A stretch of DNA of 38,396 bases from a virus, in the IMG/VR virus record IMGVR_UViG_3300009702_000051, positions 1-38,396 of that record; one strand, 5' to 3'. How positions within the stretch are numbered: the first letter of the stretch is position 1; every line of letters starts with the position of its first letter. Both the position numbers and the translations under genes were made by a program. Positions 7,023 through 35,863 of this stretch are shown one piece after another. The notes beneath the pieces were generated by a model, which was not told where the DNA came from, ran no database searches, and saw only the letters and a list, made by a program, of their open reading frames with translations.

Positions 7023-7451
7023 CTACACAGCTTTCCACGAGCGCCGTTTGATTATTGCAGCCAAAGCAGACACAGACATGGCATACTTTTTAGCAAGTTG
7101 CGTGTAGGAAGTATCTCCAGAAGCATATTCTTGGCGTATTTGCACCACAGTCTCAGAAGTTAACTTCGACCAGGGATGCTTTTCACCGCGTATACGGTTT
7201 TGTGTGTGAGGCTTTTTCTTCGGCTTAGCGCCAACTACCATGTGAGAGGGATTTACGCAGTCCGGCGTATTACATGCTTGATGCAAATGCTGTCCAAGTT
7301 CAAGAGTGTTTCCAGTAAGTAAGTAAGCAGCGCGTTGAGCAAACATTTGTCGCCCACCGTACGCAAATACCCCGTACCCTTTATTATTGACAGCTCCTTG
7401 CCAATGCCAACATGAAGAAGTTTTTACTACCTGAGACCAAAAATCTGCCAC
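7023..7451 (-). CDS. HNH endonuclease with C-terminal HTH
   Basis: This ~142-residue protein resembles the HNH_3 type found in phage homing enzymes. It has an N-terminal FWSQV...CWHWQGAVNNKGYG, a core QHLHQACNTPDCVNPSHM carrying the His/Cys/Asn residues, and a C-terminal helix-turn-helix (TVVQIRQEYA...YTQLAKKYAMSVSALAAIIKR). The GTG at 7451, four bases behind GGGGAGAGG, aligns with the start of the related gene at 20680; a TTG at 7466 is an alternative. It is the first gene of the late operon, beside terS. It may be a selfish homing nuclease or a packaging-associated HNH nuclease. Confidence 0.85.
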   Translation of the reverse strand: MADFWSQVVKTSSCWHWQGAVNNKGYGVFAYGGRQMFAQRAAYLLTGNTLELGQHLHQACNTPDCVNPSHMVVGAKPKKKPHTQNRIRGEKHPWSKLTSETVVQIRQEYASGDTSYTQLAKKYAMSVSALAAIIKRRSWKAV

Positions 7452-7492
7452 CTGTCCTCTCCCCAATTAAAGCAAACTAATCCGCTATTTTT

Positions 7493-13842: not shown

Positions 13843-14574
13843 ATGTGCGACGAAAGAAAAGTAGTTGTCATTTTTAGCGGCGGCCTAGATAGTACCATTC
13901 TACTTTGGTATCTTCGAACTAAAACTTCTTTTAATGTAGAAGCGTTTAGCGTTAACTACGGCCAAAGACATGTACGTGAACTAGAGCAGGCAAAGCTTAT
14001 CACGCAGAAACTCAAAATTCCGCACATTGTCCTAGAACTTCCACAACTACGAACTATTTTAGGCGGCTCTGCTCTTACATCTGAAATTCCTGTTCCACAT
14101 GGGATGTACGATGCAGATAACATGAAAACCACTGTCGTACCCAACCGCAACGCAATTTTAATCAATCTCGCTGTTGGATATGCTCTCTCAATAAACGCCA
14201 TGGCCGTTTACACAGCTGTTCACGCAGGAGATCATGCAGTTTATCCGGACTGTCGGCCGAGTTTTATTCACGCTATGGACCTTGCAATACGTCAAGCAAC
14301 AGAAAACACTGTAGTGCTTGCCGCTCCTTTTTCTAACATGTCCAAGACAGACATCGTCGGAGTAACTCGCGGTTACCCAGAAATTACGGACCTAGTTTTA
14401 CCGTATACATGGTCTTGTTATGAAGGAGGAGCCCTTCATTGCGGAAAATGCGGTACATGTGTCGAACGAATTGAAGCATTTTACAATGCTGGGGTAAAGG
14501 ATCTAACCCCATACCAACCAGGCGGTCGTGAATATGCTTTACAATTACTGAAGGAGAAAGCCCATGCCAACTAA
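13843..14574 (+). CDS. queC: 7-cyano-7-deazaguanine synthase QueC
   Basis: QueC converts 7-carboxy-7-deazaguanine to preQ0 using ATP and ammonia. The 243-residue protein has the PP-loop FSGGLDST at residues 11-18, VVPNRNAILINLAVGYA, HAGDHAVYPDCRPSF, and a zinc-binding Cys cluster near the C-terminus (CYEGGALHCGKCGTC). The ATG at 13843 follows CAGGAG by nine bases; an upstream in-frame TTG lacks an SD. No N-terminal glutamine amidotransferase is fused, unlike Gat-QueC proteins linked to amidine-type modification. The 3' end overlaps the next gene by 11 bp. Confidence 0.95.
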   Translation: MCDERKVVVIFSGGLDSTILLWYLRTKTSFNVEAFSVNYGQRHVRELEQAKLITQKLKIPHIVLELPQLRTILGGSALTSEIPVPHGMYDADNMKTTVVPNRNAILINLAVGYALSINAMAVYTAVHAGDHAVYPDCRPSFIHAMDLAIRQATENTVVLAAPFSNMSKTDIVGVTRGYPEITDLVLPYTWSCYEGGALHCGKCGTCVERIEAFYNAGVKDLTPYQPGGREYALQLLKEKAHAN

Positions 14575-14914
14575 GACTAGCGCAGGTTTGATTGGAAATG
14601 AATCCATTCTTGCAGCAAACGACGAGCAACATAGACACGAAATGCTTGGCATTCTTGACACTGCTCATAAACTGATAGCCCGTAAAGGACAAGACTACGA
14701 TCACTGGCTTCCATTTTACCTGGCTATGCCGCATGGTGGCGCCAGTTGGTCAACCCTACTTTGGATGAAAGCACGTCGGGCAGTAAGTCTCGTAAACAAA
14801 GTCCAAGCAAGTACATATGAACCTCTTGAAGACACTTTGTTAGACATAATTGTCTACGCCGCAGCATATCTAGCCTGGCTTCGCATAAAACGAGAGAATG
14901 AAGAATGCAACTAG
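14564..14914 (+). CDS. Nmad1 / DUF1599-like nucleotide modification-associated protein
   Basis: The 116-residue protein has the pattern I associate with DUF1599, renamed nucleotide modification-associated domain 1: an RKGQDYDHW segment, a W-KARR helix (LLWMKARRAVSLV), and EPLEDTLLDIIVYAAAYL. The all-helical fold recalls MazG/dUTPase-type nucleotide hydrolases. It overlaps queC upstream and the dpdA-like gene downstream, so it is almost certainly co-translated with the modification enzymes. It could sanitise or shape a nucleotide pool, but no function is proven. The SD AAGGAG is well placed. Confidence 0.7.
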   Translation: MPTKTSAGLIGNESILAANDEQHRHEMLGILDTAHKLIARKGQDYDHWLPFYLAMPHGGASWSTLLWMKARRAVSLVNKVQASTYEPLEDTLLDIIVYAAAYLAWLRIKRENEECN

Positions 14915-15678
14915 CACTTATCACACCCACAGCCTTTTTGAAAATATACAACAGTTCGCGTAAAATACACATGGTCTTAGCCCATCAAGTATTACGTGAC
15001 CTTGTATATGCCAACTTCTACCGAAACGTGAAAGGATATAAAATCCTAGACAACAGCCTTATGGAGAACGGACACAAAGCTGTTCCTCTTATCGAGTTGC
15101 TCACAGCGGCTGAGACAGTGCAAGCACATGAGATAGTGTTGCCAGACGCATTTTGCGATGCAGCACAAACACTCAAGTTAGTAAACCATGCACTCACACA
15201 CTTAGAGGCAAACGGACTTCCACACCGGGAGGTGAAAATCGCTGCAGTTGCCCAAGGAAAAACGCCAAGTGATTGGATTAGGTGTTTCAAAAAACTGCAT
15301 GCAAATCCGCGGATTGACGTGATACACATACCCAAAGTAATGGATGTCATCTGGCCTTATGCGGGTAGATATGGGCTACTGACACATATACACAATTTCA
15401 TGTTAGATACCATTGTCAAAAGCAAGAAAGAGATACACCTCCTAGGCGTGTGGTCATCCGTATTGGACCTCGCATATTCAAGCAGTTTCTTTTGGGTTCG
15501 TTCACTTGACACTGCTTTACCAATTCATGCTGGTCTTAATGGAATAAGATTAGACTTGCTTAGCAACCAACCTAAATCTAAGAGGCCAGAGCACTACTTC
15601 AATGTACCAATTAGTCAAGACAACGGCATGATAGCACTTAACATTGCAATTGCCGACAGCCTAGTAAAAAGGAGATAA
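14905..15678 (+). CDS. dpdA: DpdA-like DNA guanine transglycosylase
   Basis: The 257-residue protein resembles phage DpdA, a relative of tRNA-guanine transglycosylase that exchanges guanine in DNA for a 7-deazaguanine. TIM-barrel-like segments include YKILDNSLMENG, IVLPDAFCDAAQTL, VKIAAVAQGKT and HLLGVWSSVLDLAYS. The Asp residues of the first two are candidates for catalysis or base recognition. Supporting context is the co-occurrence of queC, queD, queE and folE in the same operon region. It overlaps the Nmad1-like gene by 10 bp. A TGT acting on tRNA is less likely because the protein is short and no tRNA-binding PUA or zinc module is visible. Confidence 0.75.
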   Translation: MQLALITPTAFLKIYNSSRKIHMVLAHQVLRDLVYANFYRNVKGYKILDNSLMENGHKAVPLIELLTAAETVQAHEIVLPDAFCDAAQTLKLVNHALTHLEANGLPHREVKIAAVAQGKTPSDWIRCFKKLHANPRIDVIHIPKVMDVIWPYAGRYGLLTHIHNFMLDTIVKSKKEIHLLGVWSSVLDLAYSSSFFWVRSLDTALPIHAGLNGIRLDLLSNQPKSKRPEHYFNVPISQDNGMIALNIAIADSLVKRR

Positions 15679-15682
15679 ACAC

Positions 15683-17884
15683 ATGGACCCGTTGGTTACA
15701 GTACTTGGAAAACCTTCGAAAATACGTAATCAAGTACTTAGCAGTATCTTTACCTACCACGGAATTTCGAACTGTGCTGCATTTGTTTCGTCAGAAGCCG
15801 AAATACCACCAAGTACACGCGCTGTAGTTACGCTTGGCTACAAAGCATACCAAGCATATTCAAAAGCACCACCAGCAGTCTTTCCAAAAGACATGGACAC
15901 TCTATCTTGGATTCCGGACGGCCCATCAATTACTCCTTCTTGGGATCCGTGGTATATTTACCAAACAGCACCAGACCGACTTACTGATTTGGTATTTGAT
16001 ATCGAAACAGCTTACTGGGCAGCTTTACAAGATCCCAAACAAATATCTGCAGATGTGAGCTTTCAAACCATCGAAGAACCCAAGGATGTGACAGCACTAC
16101 ACGAAAAGCTACTACTCAACACAAGCATGCTTTACGCTTGTGATATTGAAACAACGGGTTTTGACCCATACAAAGATGAAATTCTTTGCATCGGTGTGGG
16201 TTTGTCAGCAACAGAGGCGGTTGTTATCGCAGGAGAAGCTTTACAAGCTCCTGAAGTAGCGACACTATTTTCTGACCCCAAGATTTCTTGGATTTTCCAC
16301 AACGGAAAGTTTGATGTACGGTTTCTATTGCACAAGTACAAAGTCCAACCCAAAATTGCGGCTGATACGCTGCTTCTAAGCTATGTTTTAGACGAAAGAG
16401 GAGGCAAACACGGCCTCAAGTACTTGATACGAACTAGACTTGGTTTGGGTGATTACGAACAAGAACTTCGTTCTTATCTCAAGAAAAAGTCAGATAGCTT
16501 TGCCTTGGTACCTCCGCCAGTACTTCACAAATACCTAAGTTTAGATGTCTGCTATACCACACGCCTGCATGAGTACTTGTTATGGCGTCTTGCGCGTGCT
16601 GAGAGCAGTAACGAAGCCGGAATTACCAAACTATATCTGTGGCTCGTTTCAGTCGAAAATTCTTTGATCGAAGTTGAAGATAACGGGTTACTTGTCGACA
16701 GAGAAATTTTGGATTCCACAGCGGCTGAATTTGGGTCAGAGTTAGATCAACTTGAAAAGTCCCTGCAACAGCTAACAAAAAACAATTCGTTCAATCCGCG
16801 CAGCTTTAAGCAAGTGGCGCATTGGTTGTACGACGTATTTCATCTGCCAGAAGTCACCCTTTTCAGAAACAATCGACCACGCTCCACAGCGCGGGAAGCG
16901 TTAGACAAACATGCAGAAGCGTTGGAACTACAGCAACTTACCGATTCGACAGTAAGTAAAGCGCTGGTGTTTATCAAAACGCTTATTCAATATCGCGAAC
17001 TGAAGAAAATTCAGTCCACGTACGTACTTCCTATGTACGATAAACTGCAAGGAGATGGTCGTGTACACACTGACTTCATGCTACATGGATCTGTAACCGG
17101 TCGTTTAGCAAGTTCACGCCCAAATTTAATGAACATTCCACGGGCCACAAAGAACCAGTATGCAAAACGTATTCGTGGGATGTTTGTTGCAAGCCCTGGA
17201 AACGTTTTGATAAGCGCAGACTACAGTCAAGCAGAAATGCGTGTTTTAGCTACGCTCAGTCAAGACCCGTTCCTACTAAATGCCTATCGCAAAGGTTTAG
17301 ACCTGCATACAGAGACAACAATCATGCTTTTTGGTGAGAACTGGGTAAAAGAAGATCGCATGATTGCGAAGATGCTTAACTTCGGTCTTGTCTACGGGCG
17401 AACAGCTAACTCAATTGCTGTTGAAAGACAAATAGATCTTGCCGAAGCTGAAAGGCTAATGCAAGAATTTTTTGAGCGTATGCCAGAAGTATCTGATTGG
17501 ATAGGTAGAATTCGACAACAAGCAGTGACACAAGGATTTCTTACAACGCGGATGCATCGTTTTCGTCGCTTTGGTTTGGTCACACATGTAAACCAAGCGG
17601 TTGTTGCTAACCAAGCAGCGAACTTCCCAATTCAATCCACAAGTAGTGACATCTGTCTTACAGCACTACTAAACGCGCATAACTGGCTAAAAGAAACTGG
17701 TCTTGGTAAAGCTCTCTTGATGGTCCATGACAGCATTATCGTCGAGTGCGCTAAATCAGATGCCGAACAGGTTTCTGAAAAGCTGTCGGAACTAATGCAA
17801 AACGCAAGTAAACAAGTACTTGGAGAGAGCCTCGTACCTTTCAAAGTAGACGTTAGCACAGCAACAAATTGGGGCAGTTTGTGA
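15683..17884 (+). CDS. polA: Family A DNA polymerase with 3'-5' exonuclease
   Basis: The 733-residue replicative polymerase has an exonuclease motif I, CDIETTGF, near residue 153. Palm motif A is DYSQAEMRV (~513), the O-helix is RMIAKMLNFGLVYG (~558), and motif C is MVHDSIIVE (~680). There is no 5'-3' exonuclease domain. Residues 1-130 are extra; a segment VVTLGYKAYQAY...DPWYIYQTAPDR resembles the UDG-like N-terminal domain of some phage PolA proteins, but this is tentative. The SD is AAGGAG, eight bases before the ATG. It ends the first replication transcription block. Confidence 0.95.
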   Translation: MDPLVTVLGKPSKIRNQVLSSIFTYHGISNCAAFVSSEAEIPPSTRAVVTLGYKAYQAYSKAPPAVFPKDMDTLSWIPDGPSITPSWDPWYIYQTAPDRLTDLVFDIETAYWAALQDPKQISADVSFQTIEEPKDVTALHEKLLLNTSMLYACDIETTGFDPYKDEILCIGVGLSATEAVVIAGEALQAPEVATLFSDPKISWIFHNGKFDVRFLLHKYKVQPKIAADTLLLSYVLDERGGKHGLKYLIRTRLGLGDYEQELRSYLKKKSDSFALVPPPVLHKYLSLDVCYTTRLHEYLLWRLARAESSNEAGITKLYLWLVSVENSLIEVEDNGLLVDREILDSTAAEFGSELDQLEKSLQQLTKNNSFNPRSFKQVAHWLYDVFHLPEVTLFRNNRPRSTAREALDKHAEALELQQLTDSTVSKALVFIKTLIQYRELKKIQSTYVLPMYDKLQGDGRVHTDFMLHGSVTGRLASSRPNLMNIPRATKNQYAKRIRGMFVASPGNVLISADYSQAEMRVLATLSQDPFLLNAYRKGLDLHTETTIMLFGENWVKEDRMIAKMLNFGLVYGRTANSIAVERQIDLAEAERLMQEFFERMPEVSDWIGRIRQQAVTQGFLTTRMHRFRRFGLVTHVNQAVVANQAANFPIQSTSSDICLTALLNAHNWLKETGLGKALLMVHDSIIVECAKSDAEQVSEKLSELMQNASKQVLGESLVPFKVDVSTATNWGSL

Positions 17885-17893
17885 GTCAGTTTC

Positions 17894-17910
17894 GCAAAAA
17901 CAGTTTTTGC
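17894..17910. repeat. 17-bp palindrome upstream of promoter
   Basis: GCAAAAACAGTTTTTGC is a perfect inverted repeat with 8-bp arms. It lies ten bases after the polymerase stop codon and five bases before the -35 of the next promoter. The one-base loop is too tight for RNA, so the repeat fits a protein operator better than a hairpin terminator. Confidence 0.7.
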
Positions 17911-17914
17911 CGAG

Positions 17915-17943
17915 TTGATTTTTTCAAAGAAGTCCTCTATAAT
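17915..17943 (+). promoter_or_regulatory. Promoter for HTH-queDE-folE segment
   Basis: TTGATT (17915-17920), a 17-bp spacer and TATAAT (17938-17943) extended as TATAATATAGA, 51 bp before the ATG at 17995. The spacer carries AGAAGTCC just before the -10, as in the 12477 promoter. Confidence 0.78.
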
Positions 17944-17994
17944 ATAGATGTAGATTTTCACTAACTTTTTTTCACCCTTCACAAGGAGTAGCAC

Positions 17995-18291
17995 ATGTCT
18001 GAATCAGAAACCGCACGCATTACCGAACTTCTGAATGAGTTTTTCAGCCTGACTTCCACCGTGGTCGATGCGGCCGAAACCCTGGGTATACATATCCAAT
18101 ATGCTCGGCAACTGTTGCATAGCCACGAAGGATTTGCGGACAAAACTTTTCGCGTCGGCAACAAGGTTTTCTATCTGACCTCTTGGGTCGCAGAAGTCGC
18201 AGAAGAGCGGCGTCTTCAAGCAGAGAGTCGCAAAGTAACTATTGCCAAATTTGCCGAACCTGAAGAAGAAGAAGAAGTTGTGCCAGCTTAA
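17995..18291 (+). CDS. Small excisionase-like HTH protein, acidic tail
   Basis: The 98-residue protein has a probable helix-turn-helix in VDAAETLGIHIQYARQLLHS, followed by FRVGNKVFYLTSWVAEVAEERR. This is the strand-helix wing seen in MerR/excisionase-type (HTH_17) domains. The last 15 residues are strongly acidic (EPEEEEEVV). The architecture matches the proteins at 21347, 24019 and 24378, so it belongs to a family expanded in this phage. The SD AAGGAG lies six bases before the ATG. It is first behind a strong promoter, so an early regulator is plausible. Confidence 0.75.
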   Translation: MSESETARITELLNEFFSLTSTVVDAAETLGIHIQYARQLLHSHEGFADKTFRVGNKVFYLTSWVAEVAEERRLQAESRKVTIAKFAEPEEEEEVVPA

Positions 18292-18326
18292 GTTGGCTTA
18301 GTCTCTAACACAGAGAGGAATTGACT

Positions 18327-18908
18327 ATGTCAGACGTAATGAAAGTCTCTGCCATCGCAAAAATGCTGGGGACCACACCGCAGGCAATCAACAAGTGGGT
18401 TCGCGACGGAGCACCAACCGCCTCAGAAAAACCCCGCATGATTGATCCAGAAGCTTTGCAAAAGTGGGTAGCAGCAAACGTTCTTAACAAACCCCGCACA
18501 CGCAAAACCTCAAAGAACACCCAGCCCCTTCCACGGCTGATTCATAAGGGTGATATTATCACCTGGAATCGTCGCAAAGGGCGGGGCTGGGCGTTAGCTG
18601 CTCCGAAAGACGACAAACAACCTGTAGACAACCTATACACATACATCAAACAAAACGGTACTGCAGGTTATGCCACGCAACAAAAACTTCGGCAGCAGTT
18701 TGATGCTGGTGAGGTTTACTTTCTTGACCCCGTGGAAGCCCTCATCTTCATCTACGGACAGCTTAAAGCCCGACAAGAGCACAGTTCGACAGAAGCTCTT
18801 GAAAACGGAACTACGTTACTAACCTCAGCCTTGCAAGAACTCACTGCTTGGCGCGAAGACATGCAAAGGAATCAAGATGACGATAATCACGAAACGCAAA
18901 TCGTTTGA
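18327..18908 (+). CDS. HTH DNA-binding protein of unknown function
   Basis: The 193-residue protein starts with a MerR/excisionase-like HTH (KVSAIAKMLGTTPQAINKWVRDG), then a basic linker (KPRTRKTSKN). A middle region, KGDIITWNRRKGRGWAL, follows, and the C-terminus is helical and charged. The ATG at 18327 lies eight bases after GAGAGG; the in-frame TTG two codons earlier is unlikely. Its 3' end overlaps queD by 32 bp, so it is co-transcribed with the preQ0 genes and may regulate them or the replication block. I do not recognise the C-terminal part. Confidence 0.75.
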   Translation: MSDVMKVSAIAKMLGTTPQAINKWVRDGAPTASEKPRMIDPEALQKWVAANVLNKPRTRKTSKNTQPLPRLIHKGDIITWNRRKGRGWALAAPKDDKQPVDNLYTYIKQNGTAGYATQQKLRQQFDAGEVYFLDPVEALIFIYGQLKARQEHSSTEALENGTTLLTSALQELTAWREDMQRNQDDDNHETQIV

Positions 18909-19356
18909 TGCCGCTCATTGGCTGCCAAATCACTACGGAAAGTGCCACAATTTACATGGTCATACTTACATTGTGGAATGTTCTGTTGCAGGAAATCGGC
19001 TAGATACTCCCGGCCATTCTAGCAACGGTATGGTCCTTGACTTTGCGGTTCTGAAAGAAGCCATGAACAGCATAATTATTCTTTGGGATCATCATGTCCT
19101 AACACCTTACACGCACGACCAGCTGGTACAATTGTTCAAAAACAACAAAAAACAGCTTGAACAATTCGGCTTACGACATGCCCGCTGTGTTCCAATTGGT
19201 GAGGACACTACTGCAGAGAACTTAGCACACATTTTTGCCGAACACATCTATGATGCACTTCAAGGTCGAAAAATTGCTTTCGACTTTGTTCGAATACTGC
19301 TTCACGAAACACCTGATTCCTGGGCCATCGCAGAAATTCCACAGCGGGGAGAGTGA
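18877..19356 (+). CDS. queD: 6-carboxytetrahydropterin synthase QueD
   Basis: QueD turns dihydroneopterin triphosphate into 6-carboxytetrahydropterin, the second step of preQ0 synthesis. The 159-residue protein has the zinc histidines H14, H27 and H29, the catalytic Cys23 within FDAAH...KCHNLHGHTY, and a later GEDTTAENLA motif. It is about 40 residues longer than typical QueD, mainly through an insertion around residues 80-110. AAAGGAATC precedes the ATG. The stop codon is one base from the queE start. Confidence 0.94.
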   Translation: MTIITKRKSFDAAHWLPNHYGKCHNLHGHTYIVECSVAGNRLDTPGHSSNGMVLDFAVLKEAMNSIIILWDHHVLTPYTHDQLVQLFKNNKKQLEQFGLRHARCVPIGEDTTAENLAHIFAEHIYDALQGRKIAFDFVRILLHETPDSWAIAEIPQRGE

Positions 19357-19357
19357 G

Positions 19358-20083
19358 ATGAACGTAATTGAAATCTACAAAGCTGCCCAAGGTGAAGGTA
19401 TGCGTGTCGGACAACCAACGGTTTTTGTACGACTCGCTGGCTGCACCGTTGGTTGTCGGTGGTGCGACACCAAATTTAGCTGGAAGGCCGCACAAGGTAC
19501 TACCTATACACCACAAGAACTTTGTGATGCCTTTCTGCAGTACGGTATAAACAGTCTTGTGCTTACGGGAGGCGAACCCATGCAGCACCCAGCAGCTGCT
19601 TTGGGTGAGTTTCTCGATCTAACTGTGCCTCATGTACGAGACATAACGATCGAAACTAGCGGCATTGTTTTTCCCGCATTCACGCTCAACACACAACCAC
19701 CTTTCCCACTGCTGTGGTCCGTAGCACCAAAACTTCCTGCCGCAAAAACCCGGACAACTTTTCCAAACCTTCGTAAGTGGGTCGATATTGCCACTTCTCG
19801 GGGTGAACCTATCCAGTTCAAGTTCGTTGTTTCATCTCAACTCGAAATTGACTTGGTTAAGATACTTCTACACACCCACAACATATCCACCTACGTCCCG
19901 GTTATCATACAACCAACAACTGTATTCAAACCCGCCTCACAACCGGAAGTTGTTAAATCCCTCTTGACAAGCACTCGACAAATGCAAGAATACTTGCTTA
20001 AACAGGACTGGACCAACAAATACCAGATCTACATTCGTCCACAAATGCATGCCCTTCTCTACGGGCAGAAACGAGGTATCTAA
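19358..20083 (+). CDS. queE: 7-carboxy-7-deazaguanine synthase QueE (radical SAM)
   Basis: QueE is a radical SAM enzyme that contracts the pterin ring to 7-carboxy-7-deazaguanine. The 241-residue protein has the [4Fe-4S] motif CTVGCRWC (C29, C33, C36; CX3CX2C), an N-terminal IYKAAQGEGMRVGQP typical of QueE, and TGGEPM. The ATG at 19358 sits behind GGGGAGAGTGAG and one base after the queD stop codon; the frame is open further upstream but that part overlaps queD. The product feeds QueC. Confidence 0.94.
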   Translation: MNVIEIYKAAQGEGMRVGQPTVFVRLAGCTVGCRWCDTKFSWKAAQGTTYTPQELCDAFLQYGINSLVLTGGEPMQHPAAALGEFLDLTVPHVRDITIETSGIVFPAFTLNTQPPFPLLWSVAPKLPAAKTRTTFPNLRKWVDIATSRGEPIQFKFVVSSQLEIDLVKILLHTHNISTYVPVIIQPTTVFKPASQPEVVKSLLTSTRQMQEYLLKQDWTNKYQIYIRPQMHALLYGQKRGI

Positions 20084-20086
20084 CTA

Positions 20087-20680
20087 ATGGCACTAGAAAA
20101 TGCCGCTGAACAGGCTTTTGCTATATTCATGCGTGAAATCGGCTTTCCGCCCGAACACAGTCTTCACCTACGCAACACTCCACACCGCGTAACAAAGATG
20201 TTCCGAGAAATGTTCTACGGTGTAGACAAAGAACCAAAACTAACTGCCTTTGACATCGAAGAATATGTTCCTGGACACGTTGGAGATCCTGGAATCGTTG
20301 TTGTTCGAGACATTCCTTTCTACTCAATCTGCGCTCACCACTTCCTGCCCTTTTTCGGTACTGCTCATGTTGCCTACATCCCCGAAAGAAAACTTCTAGG
20401 TCTTTCTAAATTTGCCCGTGTGGTAACAGCTATGGCTGCAGGACCACAAGTCCAAGAAGACATCGGTTCGCAAACAGCGGATTATATTCAGAAAATTCTT
20501 CAGCCTTTGGCAATCGGTGTGGTACTCCAAGCAACACATATGTGCATGTCGGCCAGAGGCGTTAAAGCGCATGGGGCTTCTACGGTTACTTCCGCCTTGC
20601 GCGGTATTTTCTTCTCTGATGCACGAGCTAGAGAGGAAATGTACCGTTTAATCACTATTCCACACGGGGGAGGATTTTAA
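20087..20680 (+). CDS. folE: GTP cyclohydrolase I FolE
   Basis: FolE opens GTP to dihydroneopterin triphosphate, the entry step of preQ0 (and folate) synthesis. The 197-residue protein has the zinc/active-site motifs SICAHHFLPFFG, LLGLSKFARVV and the C-terminal MCMSARGVKAHGASTVTSALRG. It is four bases after queE, with a GAGG ten bases upstream. Together with queD, queE and queC it gives the phage a full GTP-to-preQ0 route independent of the host. Confidence 0.95.
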   Translation: MALENAAEQAFAIFMREIGFPPEHSLHLRNTPHRVTKMFREMFYGVDKEPKLTAFDIEEYVPGHVGDPGIVVVRDIPFYSICAHHFLPFFGTAHVAYIPERKLLGLSKFARVVTAMAAGPQVQEDIGSQTADYIQKILQPLAIGVVLQATHMCMSARGVKAHGASTVTSALRGIFFSDARAREEMYRLITIPHGGGF

Positions 20681-21132
20681 TGAGTTCGCTGCAGCAGCGT
20701 TTTTGGTCTAAGGTTTGGATTGATCCTGATTCTGATTGTTGGATTTGGGAGGCGGCAAAAACAGCTGGTGGTTACGGCCAAATAGCAGTTAACGGAAAAC
20801 CCGCCTACGCTAACCGAGTTTCATACGAGCGCGACATTGGACCGCTTTTACCAGGGCAAATTCTAATGCATCTGTGTGGTGAACCGTCTTGCGTAAATCC
20901 AAACCACATGTTCGCAGGAACCCCTGCTGAAGTAGCTGCTAAGCGAAAAGAATTGAATATGCCGAAAAAAGAACCCAACGTTGAGCTCAGCGTTTCCACA
21001 CGGGAGAAAATTCGGCGGAGATACGAAGCGGGGCAGACGCAAGTTTCATTGGCTCGTGAATACGGTATTACGCAGGCTAGGGTTGCTTACATCTGCCAGC
21101 GATTTGAGTATGACTCTTATGTAGGACATTAG
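20680..21132 (+). CDS. HNH endonuclease with C-terminal HTH (paralogue)
   Basis: The 150-residue protein is organised like the HNH protein at 7023. It opens RFWSKVWIDPDSDCWIWEAAKTAGGYG, has the core MHLCGEPSCVNPNHMFAGT, and ends in a helix-turn-helix (YEAGQTQVSLAREYGITQARVAYICQ). Its ATG overlaps the folE stop codon (TAATG). It closes the replication/modification segment, and the GC-rich block begins soon after. Two related HNH genes at module borders suggest homing mobility. Confidence 0.87.
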   Translation: MSSLQQRFWSKVWIDPDSDCWIWEAAKTAGGYGQIAVNGKPAYANRVSYERDIGPLLPGQILMHLCGEPSCVNPNHMFAGTPAEVAAKRKELNMPKKEPNVELSVSTREKIRRRYEAGQTQVSLAREYGITQARVAYICQRFEYDSYVGH

Positions 21133-35789: not shown

Positions 35790-35863
35790 TGGTAGCGGGG
35801 GCAGGAGTCGAACCTGCCTAAGCGAAGTCATGAGTCTCGCTGCATCCCGGATGCGCCCCCGCA
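35790..35863 (-). tRNA. tRNA-like gene, CAT anticodon (Met/Ile2 type)
   Basis: Read on the minus strand, a 74-base gene ends in encoded CCA (35790-35792). It has a canonical T arm (GCAGG TTCGACT CCTGC), an anticodon loop CTCATGA giving CAT, and acceptor strands TGCGGGG / CCCCGCT that pair except at position 1-72 (T-T). Unpaired 1-72 is a feature of bacterial initiator tRNA. The D loop is short (CCGGG), and the anticodon stem (CGAGA/CTTCG) has a G-T and an A-C pair, so folding is imperfect. It sits between the endolysin-like and lysis genes. Confidence 0.65.

Follow-up and report, generated by a model that had tools for sequence, protein, structure and literature searches.

Does a phage that encodes the four enzymes for making preQ0 (7-cyano-7-deazaguanine) beside a short, unannotated protein also write a 7-deazaguanine into its own DNA? 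The question is raised by the stretch of DNA analyzed here (the window), which is the whole of a 38,396-bp IMG/VR virus record with 44% GC. The record is classed as linear and is therefore probably a fragment; no terminal repeat was found in its 38,396 bp. On the left side of the window, the minus strand carries genes for the major head protein, the portal, and the large terminase. The plus strand has a replication module made up of a primase/helicase, an SNF2-type helicase, and a Sak-like ATPase with a DUF669-type protein after it; no tail genes were recognized in the window. We consider it highly probable (roughly 0.85) that the locus is a self-contained phage cassette for 7-deazaguanine modification of DNA.

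The pathway genes are all on the plus strand, with queC at 13843..14574, queD at 18877..19356, queE at 19358..20083, and folE at 20087..20680, and comparison with Pfam, PHROGs, NCBIfam, and alignments bore out the original prediction that all four are present with intact catalytic motifs. QueC, the preQ0 synthase, matched PF06508 (3e-57) and TIGR00364 (191.5 bits against an NCBIfam cut-off of 150.3), and QueD, a 6-carboxytetrahydropterin synthase, matched PF01242 (PTPS; 1.6e-28). QueE, the radical SAM enzyme 7-carboxy-7-deazaguanine synthase, matched phrog_2076 (2.6e-36) and, under its cut-off, TIGR03365 (3e-26), and FolE, GTP cyclohydrolase I, matched PF01227 (3.2e-56) and, above cut-off, NF006826 of NCBIfam. 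Scores of QueD and QueE under the strict NCBIfam equivalog cut-offs are expected of divergent phage versions. Active sites were checked by alignment with the chemically characterized phage CAjan and others. QueC had kept the PP-loop SGGLDS and the four zinc cysteines (C-x7-C-x2-C-x2-C); QueD the Cys before HGH, the Asp/His of WDHH, and the C-terminal Glu (HET); QueE the motifs CX3CX2C, QGEG, and GGEP; and FolE its zinc and GTP-site motifs (C-x-HH, QVQE, H-x-C, and ARG), with the oddity of an Ala after the first zinc Cys, where the aligned phage homologues have Glu. The best starts were ATG 13843 for queC and ATG 19358 for queE, each with a purine-rich ribosome site 5' of it; no Rfam match to a preQ riboswitch was found in the window. 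FolE, QueD, QueE, and QueC are the enzymes encoded by the preQ0 group of 7-deazaguanine-modifying phages (group 2 of Hutinet 2019), a group further marked by a DpdA homologue, by the lack of an amidotransferase (Gat-QueC, QueF-L/QueF, or ArcS), and by dPreQ0 in the virion DNA.

The product of the plus-strand gene at 14905..15678 (257 aa) matched no Pfam or NCBIfam model, and its sole PHROG match was to phrog_20335 (4e-8), a family of unknown function. Its AlphaFold2 model (pLDDT of 91.5) had eight alternating strands and an eight-stranded barrel, and in a Foldseek search the top 23 PDB matches of this model were all tRNA-guanine transglycosylases (TGT; best, 6e-6), so the protein passed the structural check set for it beforehand, namely, that it should fall inside the TGT fold. 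Among its best viral fold matches were proteins of phiST and nt-1 (R9TGF0) and annotated queuine transferases. A profile made from an alignment of 18 relatives (A2) matched the bacterial DpdA of PDB entry 7UI4, a DNA-guanine transglycosylase of solved structure (E = 1.2e-4); the match brings the HLLG motif and the Asp that follows it (Asp202 here) into register. D49, D81, H178, L180, G181, and D202 were invariant among the 18 relatives, the aspartates standing in the contexts LDNS (Asp49), PD (Asp81), and LDT (Asp202). The window protein thus has the fold and the HLLG...D nucleophile motif in common with bacterial TGT and with 7UI4, which is longer (436 versus 257 aa). Relatives, profile match to a solved DpdA, predicted fold, and fold search all agree with the DpdA-like identity proposed earlier, and the TGT fold and 7UI4 match make the protein the DpdA homologue that completes the gene set of the preQ0 group. 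Judged from motif order, by analogy with TGT, Asp49 would be the candidate acid/base, Asp81 may belong to the pocket, and Asp202 would be the candidate nucleophile.

We compared this DpdA with the known subfamilies. Relatives were found in 12 phage records at 22 to 30% identity (about 24 to 30% for the named phages) and were mostly labeled hypothetical, the Flavobacterium phage immuto copies carrying the DpdA label. No close relatives turned up when viral and genome contigs were scanned with the single protein, and an earlier alignment (A1) held no stretch conserved enough to serve as a scan query. The A2 profile found Youna2 and CP220 gp056 (1.2e-56), which by sequence places the window protein in the short-DpdA family that holds gp056, and it had no match in the 9g, CAjan, nt-1, or HVTV-1 records. 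With the CAjan and 9g DpdAs (DpdA1) there was no BLAST match, the profile scores were 4.4 and 0.6 bits, and the profile-profile match with A2 was only marginal, so that the comparison of subfamilies called for by the original prediction assigns the protein to the gp056 family and not to the CAjan/9g type. By sequence similarity it likewise falls outside DpdA2 (nt-1), with which R9TGF0 links it at the fold level only, and outside the HVTV-1 type. We take CP220 gp056 to be the DpdA3 of Cui et al. 2023, who are said to have tied CP220-type DpdA3 to complete replacement of G, and the HVTV-1 enzyme is presumably DpdA4. In the tree, the window DpdA grouped with that of contig L007 (99/96) and then with those of contig L064, Weizmannia phage Youna2, and Bacillus phage BSP7 (95/85; five rows), the last two unannotated and about 30% identical to it; CP220, immuto, and their kin formed a second clade, and phiST and MA9V-3 formed a third. 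The deep branching order is unsure because the end branches are long.

The surroundings of dpdA were conserved. Contigs L007 and L009 keep the order of the window (helicase, Sak-like ATPase, DUF669, queC, a small gene, dpdA, polA, queD, queE, and folE), and gene order is closely similar in BSP7 and Youna2, whose cassettes share queC, queD, queE, folE, dpdA, and polA with the window; in these two phages, however, queD, queE, and folE lie 5' of dpdA rather than 3' of polA, and the small gene is lacking. Of 37 short-DpdA loci, most of them found via queC, all that had enough flank carried pathway genes. The window polA, a family A DNA polymerase gene (15683..17884, plus strand; PF00476, 7.5e-91), begins 4 bp past dpdA, and polA is also directly 3' of dpdA in BSP7, Youna2, and five other short-DpdA contigs (L014, L026, L036, L040, and L053). 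CAjan and 9g share with the window the four preQ0 enzymes, the apparent lack of an amidotransferase, a phage DpdA, and nearby Sak4/DUF669-type and DNA polymerase genes; there, too, the polymerase gene is downstream of dpdA, but with a clamp gene in between. Because a DNA polymerase gene follows dpdA even with the unrelated-looking CAjan/9g DpdA subfamily, the base may be exchanged in step with replication.

The small gene (14564..14914, plus strand) overlaps the ends of queC and dpdA and encodes a helical protein that matched phrog_1485 (1e-8) and, below the cut-off, PF07659 (DUF1599, nucleotide modification associated domain 1; E = 0.007); its model (pLDDT of 70) had no fold match. The gene was found at the same position in L007 and L009 and nowhere else, and it was rejected as a general cassette component, the small genes 5' of dpdA in Youna2, phiST, immuto, RHph_I1_18, and MA9V-3 being unrelated to it. 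A different small family of unknown function with an HRHLF motif, phrog_17812, occurs near dpdA in phiST, RHph_I1_18, and MA9V-3 (members at L003:7195-7542, L005:3901-4278, and, as the C-terminal part, L006:4647-5528). QueC was not found in these three short-DpdA phages, and the phrog_17812 family is also present in L019, a contig with QueC. Its product is a candidate enzyme acting on CDG, the QueC substrate.

Together, the genes are predicted to form an active pathway in which FolE, QueD, QueE, and QueC would turn GTP into preQ0 and DpdA would swap guanine for preQ0 in replicated phage DNA. The swap would be a covalent base exchange of the TGT type, with, by analogy, Asp202 as the nucleophile and Asp49 as the acid/base, and the modified DNA would be shielded from restriction enzymes with G in their sites.

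Which base is inserted was approached through the gene set. The original prediction held that QueF and an amidotransferase extension were missing and that dPreQ0 was the simplest product. Its first part stood in profile searches of the whole contig, in which QueF gave only a subthreshold match inside folE (a fold relative) and GATase_6 gave no match, QueC itself having no Gat domain; a formyltransferase was not found in the window either. For the second part there is a precedent: with FolE, QueD, QueE, QueC, and DpdA but no amidotransferase, CAjan has dPreQ0 in place of about 32% of its G and Rosebush in place of 28%. Deletion of dpdA in CAjan abolishes both modification and restriction resistance (PMC6884629). 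The protection is partial, CAjan DNA still being cut by EcoRI and SwaI (PMC6884629). We regard dPreQ0 as the most likely inserted base, but its place as the simplest product is qualified by the subfamily of the window DpdA. In CP220, the only chemically characterized phage found with a member of this DpdA family, the cassette genes are scattered and the reported base is dADG, which replaces 100% of dG there and in CPt10 (PMC8306585). The main alternative is therefore dADG (7-amido), the DpdA family perhaps accepting the amide. Like the window, CP220 encodes QueC. QueC forms ADG en route to preQ0. We nevertheless hold dADG to be unlikely for the window phage: its DpdA and that of CP220 belong to different subclades, its QueC is orthodox by score and has kept all four zinc cysteines, and CP220 may carry further genes.

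Further modification of the base by a gene outside the fragment, for instance to preQ1 or G+ or by formylation or methylation, appears quite improbable. Because the contig is incomplete, with no tail genes on it, additional modifying genes may be missing; in the related phage immuto, genes for QueF and a formyltransferase adjoin dpdA. In BSP7 and Youna2, however, the closest phages with a syntenic cassette, annotation shows neither QueF nor Gat nor a formyltransferase in its vicinity, and none of the three was found in the window. That the genes serve tRNA queuosine or host metabolism instead of phage DNA is very improbable, for although folE, queD, queE, and queC double as queuosine precursor genes, the contig has neither a match to the tRNA TGT family (PF01702) nor QueF, and its transglycosylase, a member of the DNA-modifying DpdA family, has the phage DNA polymerase gene directly after it.

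How much of the G would be replaced by a 7-deazaguanine was addressed through a footprint in the genome sequence. If all G were modified, G-containing restriction sites would be under relaxed selection and G-free sites would still be exposed. Observed-to-expected ratios (O/E) of the 56 G-containing 6-bp palindromes, under a maximal-order Markov expectation, were 0.94 in the window, 1.04 in CP220, 0.97 in Youna2, 1.02 in BSP7, 0.98 in phiST, and 0.94 in immuto, all with short DpdA, and were 0.70 in CAjan, 0.69 in 9g, 0.79 in nt-1, and 0.43 in HVTV-1. Over contigs, the median O/E was 0.96 with short DpdA (n = 27), 0.71 with DpdA1 (n = 30), and 0.73 at loci without the pathway (n = 49; fetched as helicase relatives), and control words of the same composition gave 1.00 in every group. 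Short-DpdA loci differed from the other two groups (Mann-Whitney P = 3e-7 and 7e-7, with loci counted singly despite kinship), also when GC was limited to 0.30 to 0.58 (P = 5e-5 and 6e-6), and the difference persisted, though weaker, when averaged over five clades (P = 0.007 and 0.012). Three contigs of one short-DpdA subclade (L050, L061, and L063) did not fit the pattern and avoided G-containing palindromes (0.74 to 0.79); their DpdA possibly has partial or motif-limited activity.

None of the 2,080 hexamers was more depleted in the window than the G-free palindrome AATATT, the SspI site, of which 9.1 copies were expected and none was seen (P = 1.2e-4, uncorrected for the 64 palindromes). 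In 20 window genes, palindromes of A and T only numbered 19, versus 46 ± 5.7 in synonymous shuffles, and G-containing palindromes numbered 200, versus 213 ± 13. AATATT was not depleted in L064 or L007, and its depletion in the window may therefore reflect the phage's own host. The palindrome pattern, from an exploratory analysis devised after seeing the data and with host restriction repertoires uncontrolled, hints indirectly that nearly all G is replaced; for the window phage, we give near-complete replacement slightly less than an even chance. A tentative generalization, which we would sooner doubt than adopt, is that short DpdA replaces essentially every G, with dPreQ0 or, as in CP220, dADG, and that AATATT is absent and G-containing palindromes are near chance because only G-free sites are still selected against. 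If that is true, full replacement could be recognized throughout the short-DpdA phages from sequence only, by the lost avoidance of G-containing palindromes.

As a kind, the cassette is ordinary and has ample precedent, and 7-deazaguanine as a defense against restriction is already known. New are the lineage, which joins the known guanine-rewriting phages with a divergent DpdA, the occurrence of this short, unannotated enzyme together with preQ0 genes, and a footprint from which full replacement of G becomes a testable prediction for cultured relatives such as BSP7 and Youna2. Such modification is undercounted because enzymes of this kind are labeled hypothetical in most records. If the footprint holds, the extent of replacement could be read from the sequence by itself, and uncultured, wholly G-substituted phages could be found without chemistry.

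Directly 3' of folE, the window carries an HNH-type endonuclease gene (20680-21132; phrog_1872, 7e-26). A second gene, with weaker HNH/HTH-like character, stands where the packaging module begins (7023-7466). A tRNA gene with a CAT anticodon, called as tRNA-Met, lies at 35790-35863 on the minus strand amid genes without known function.
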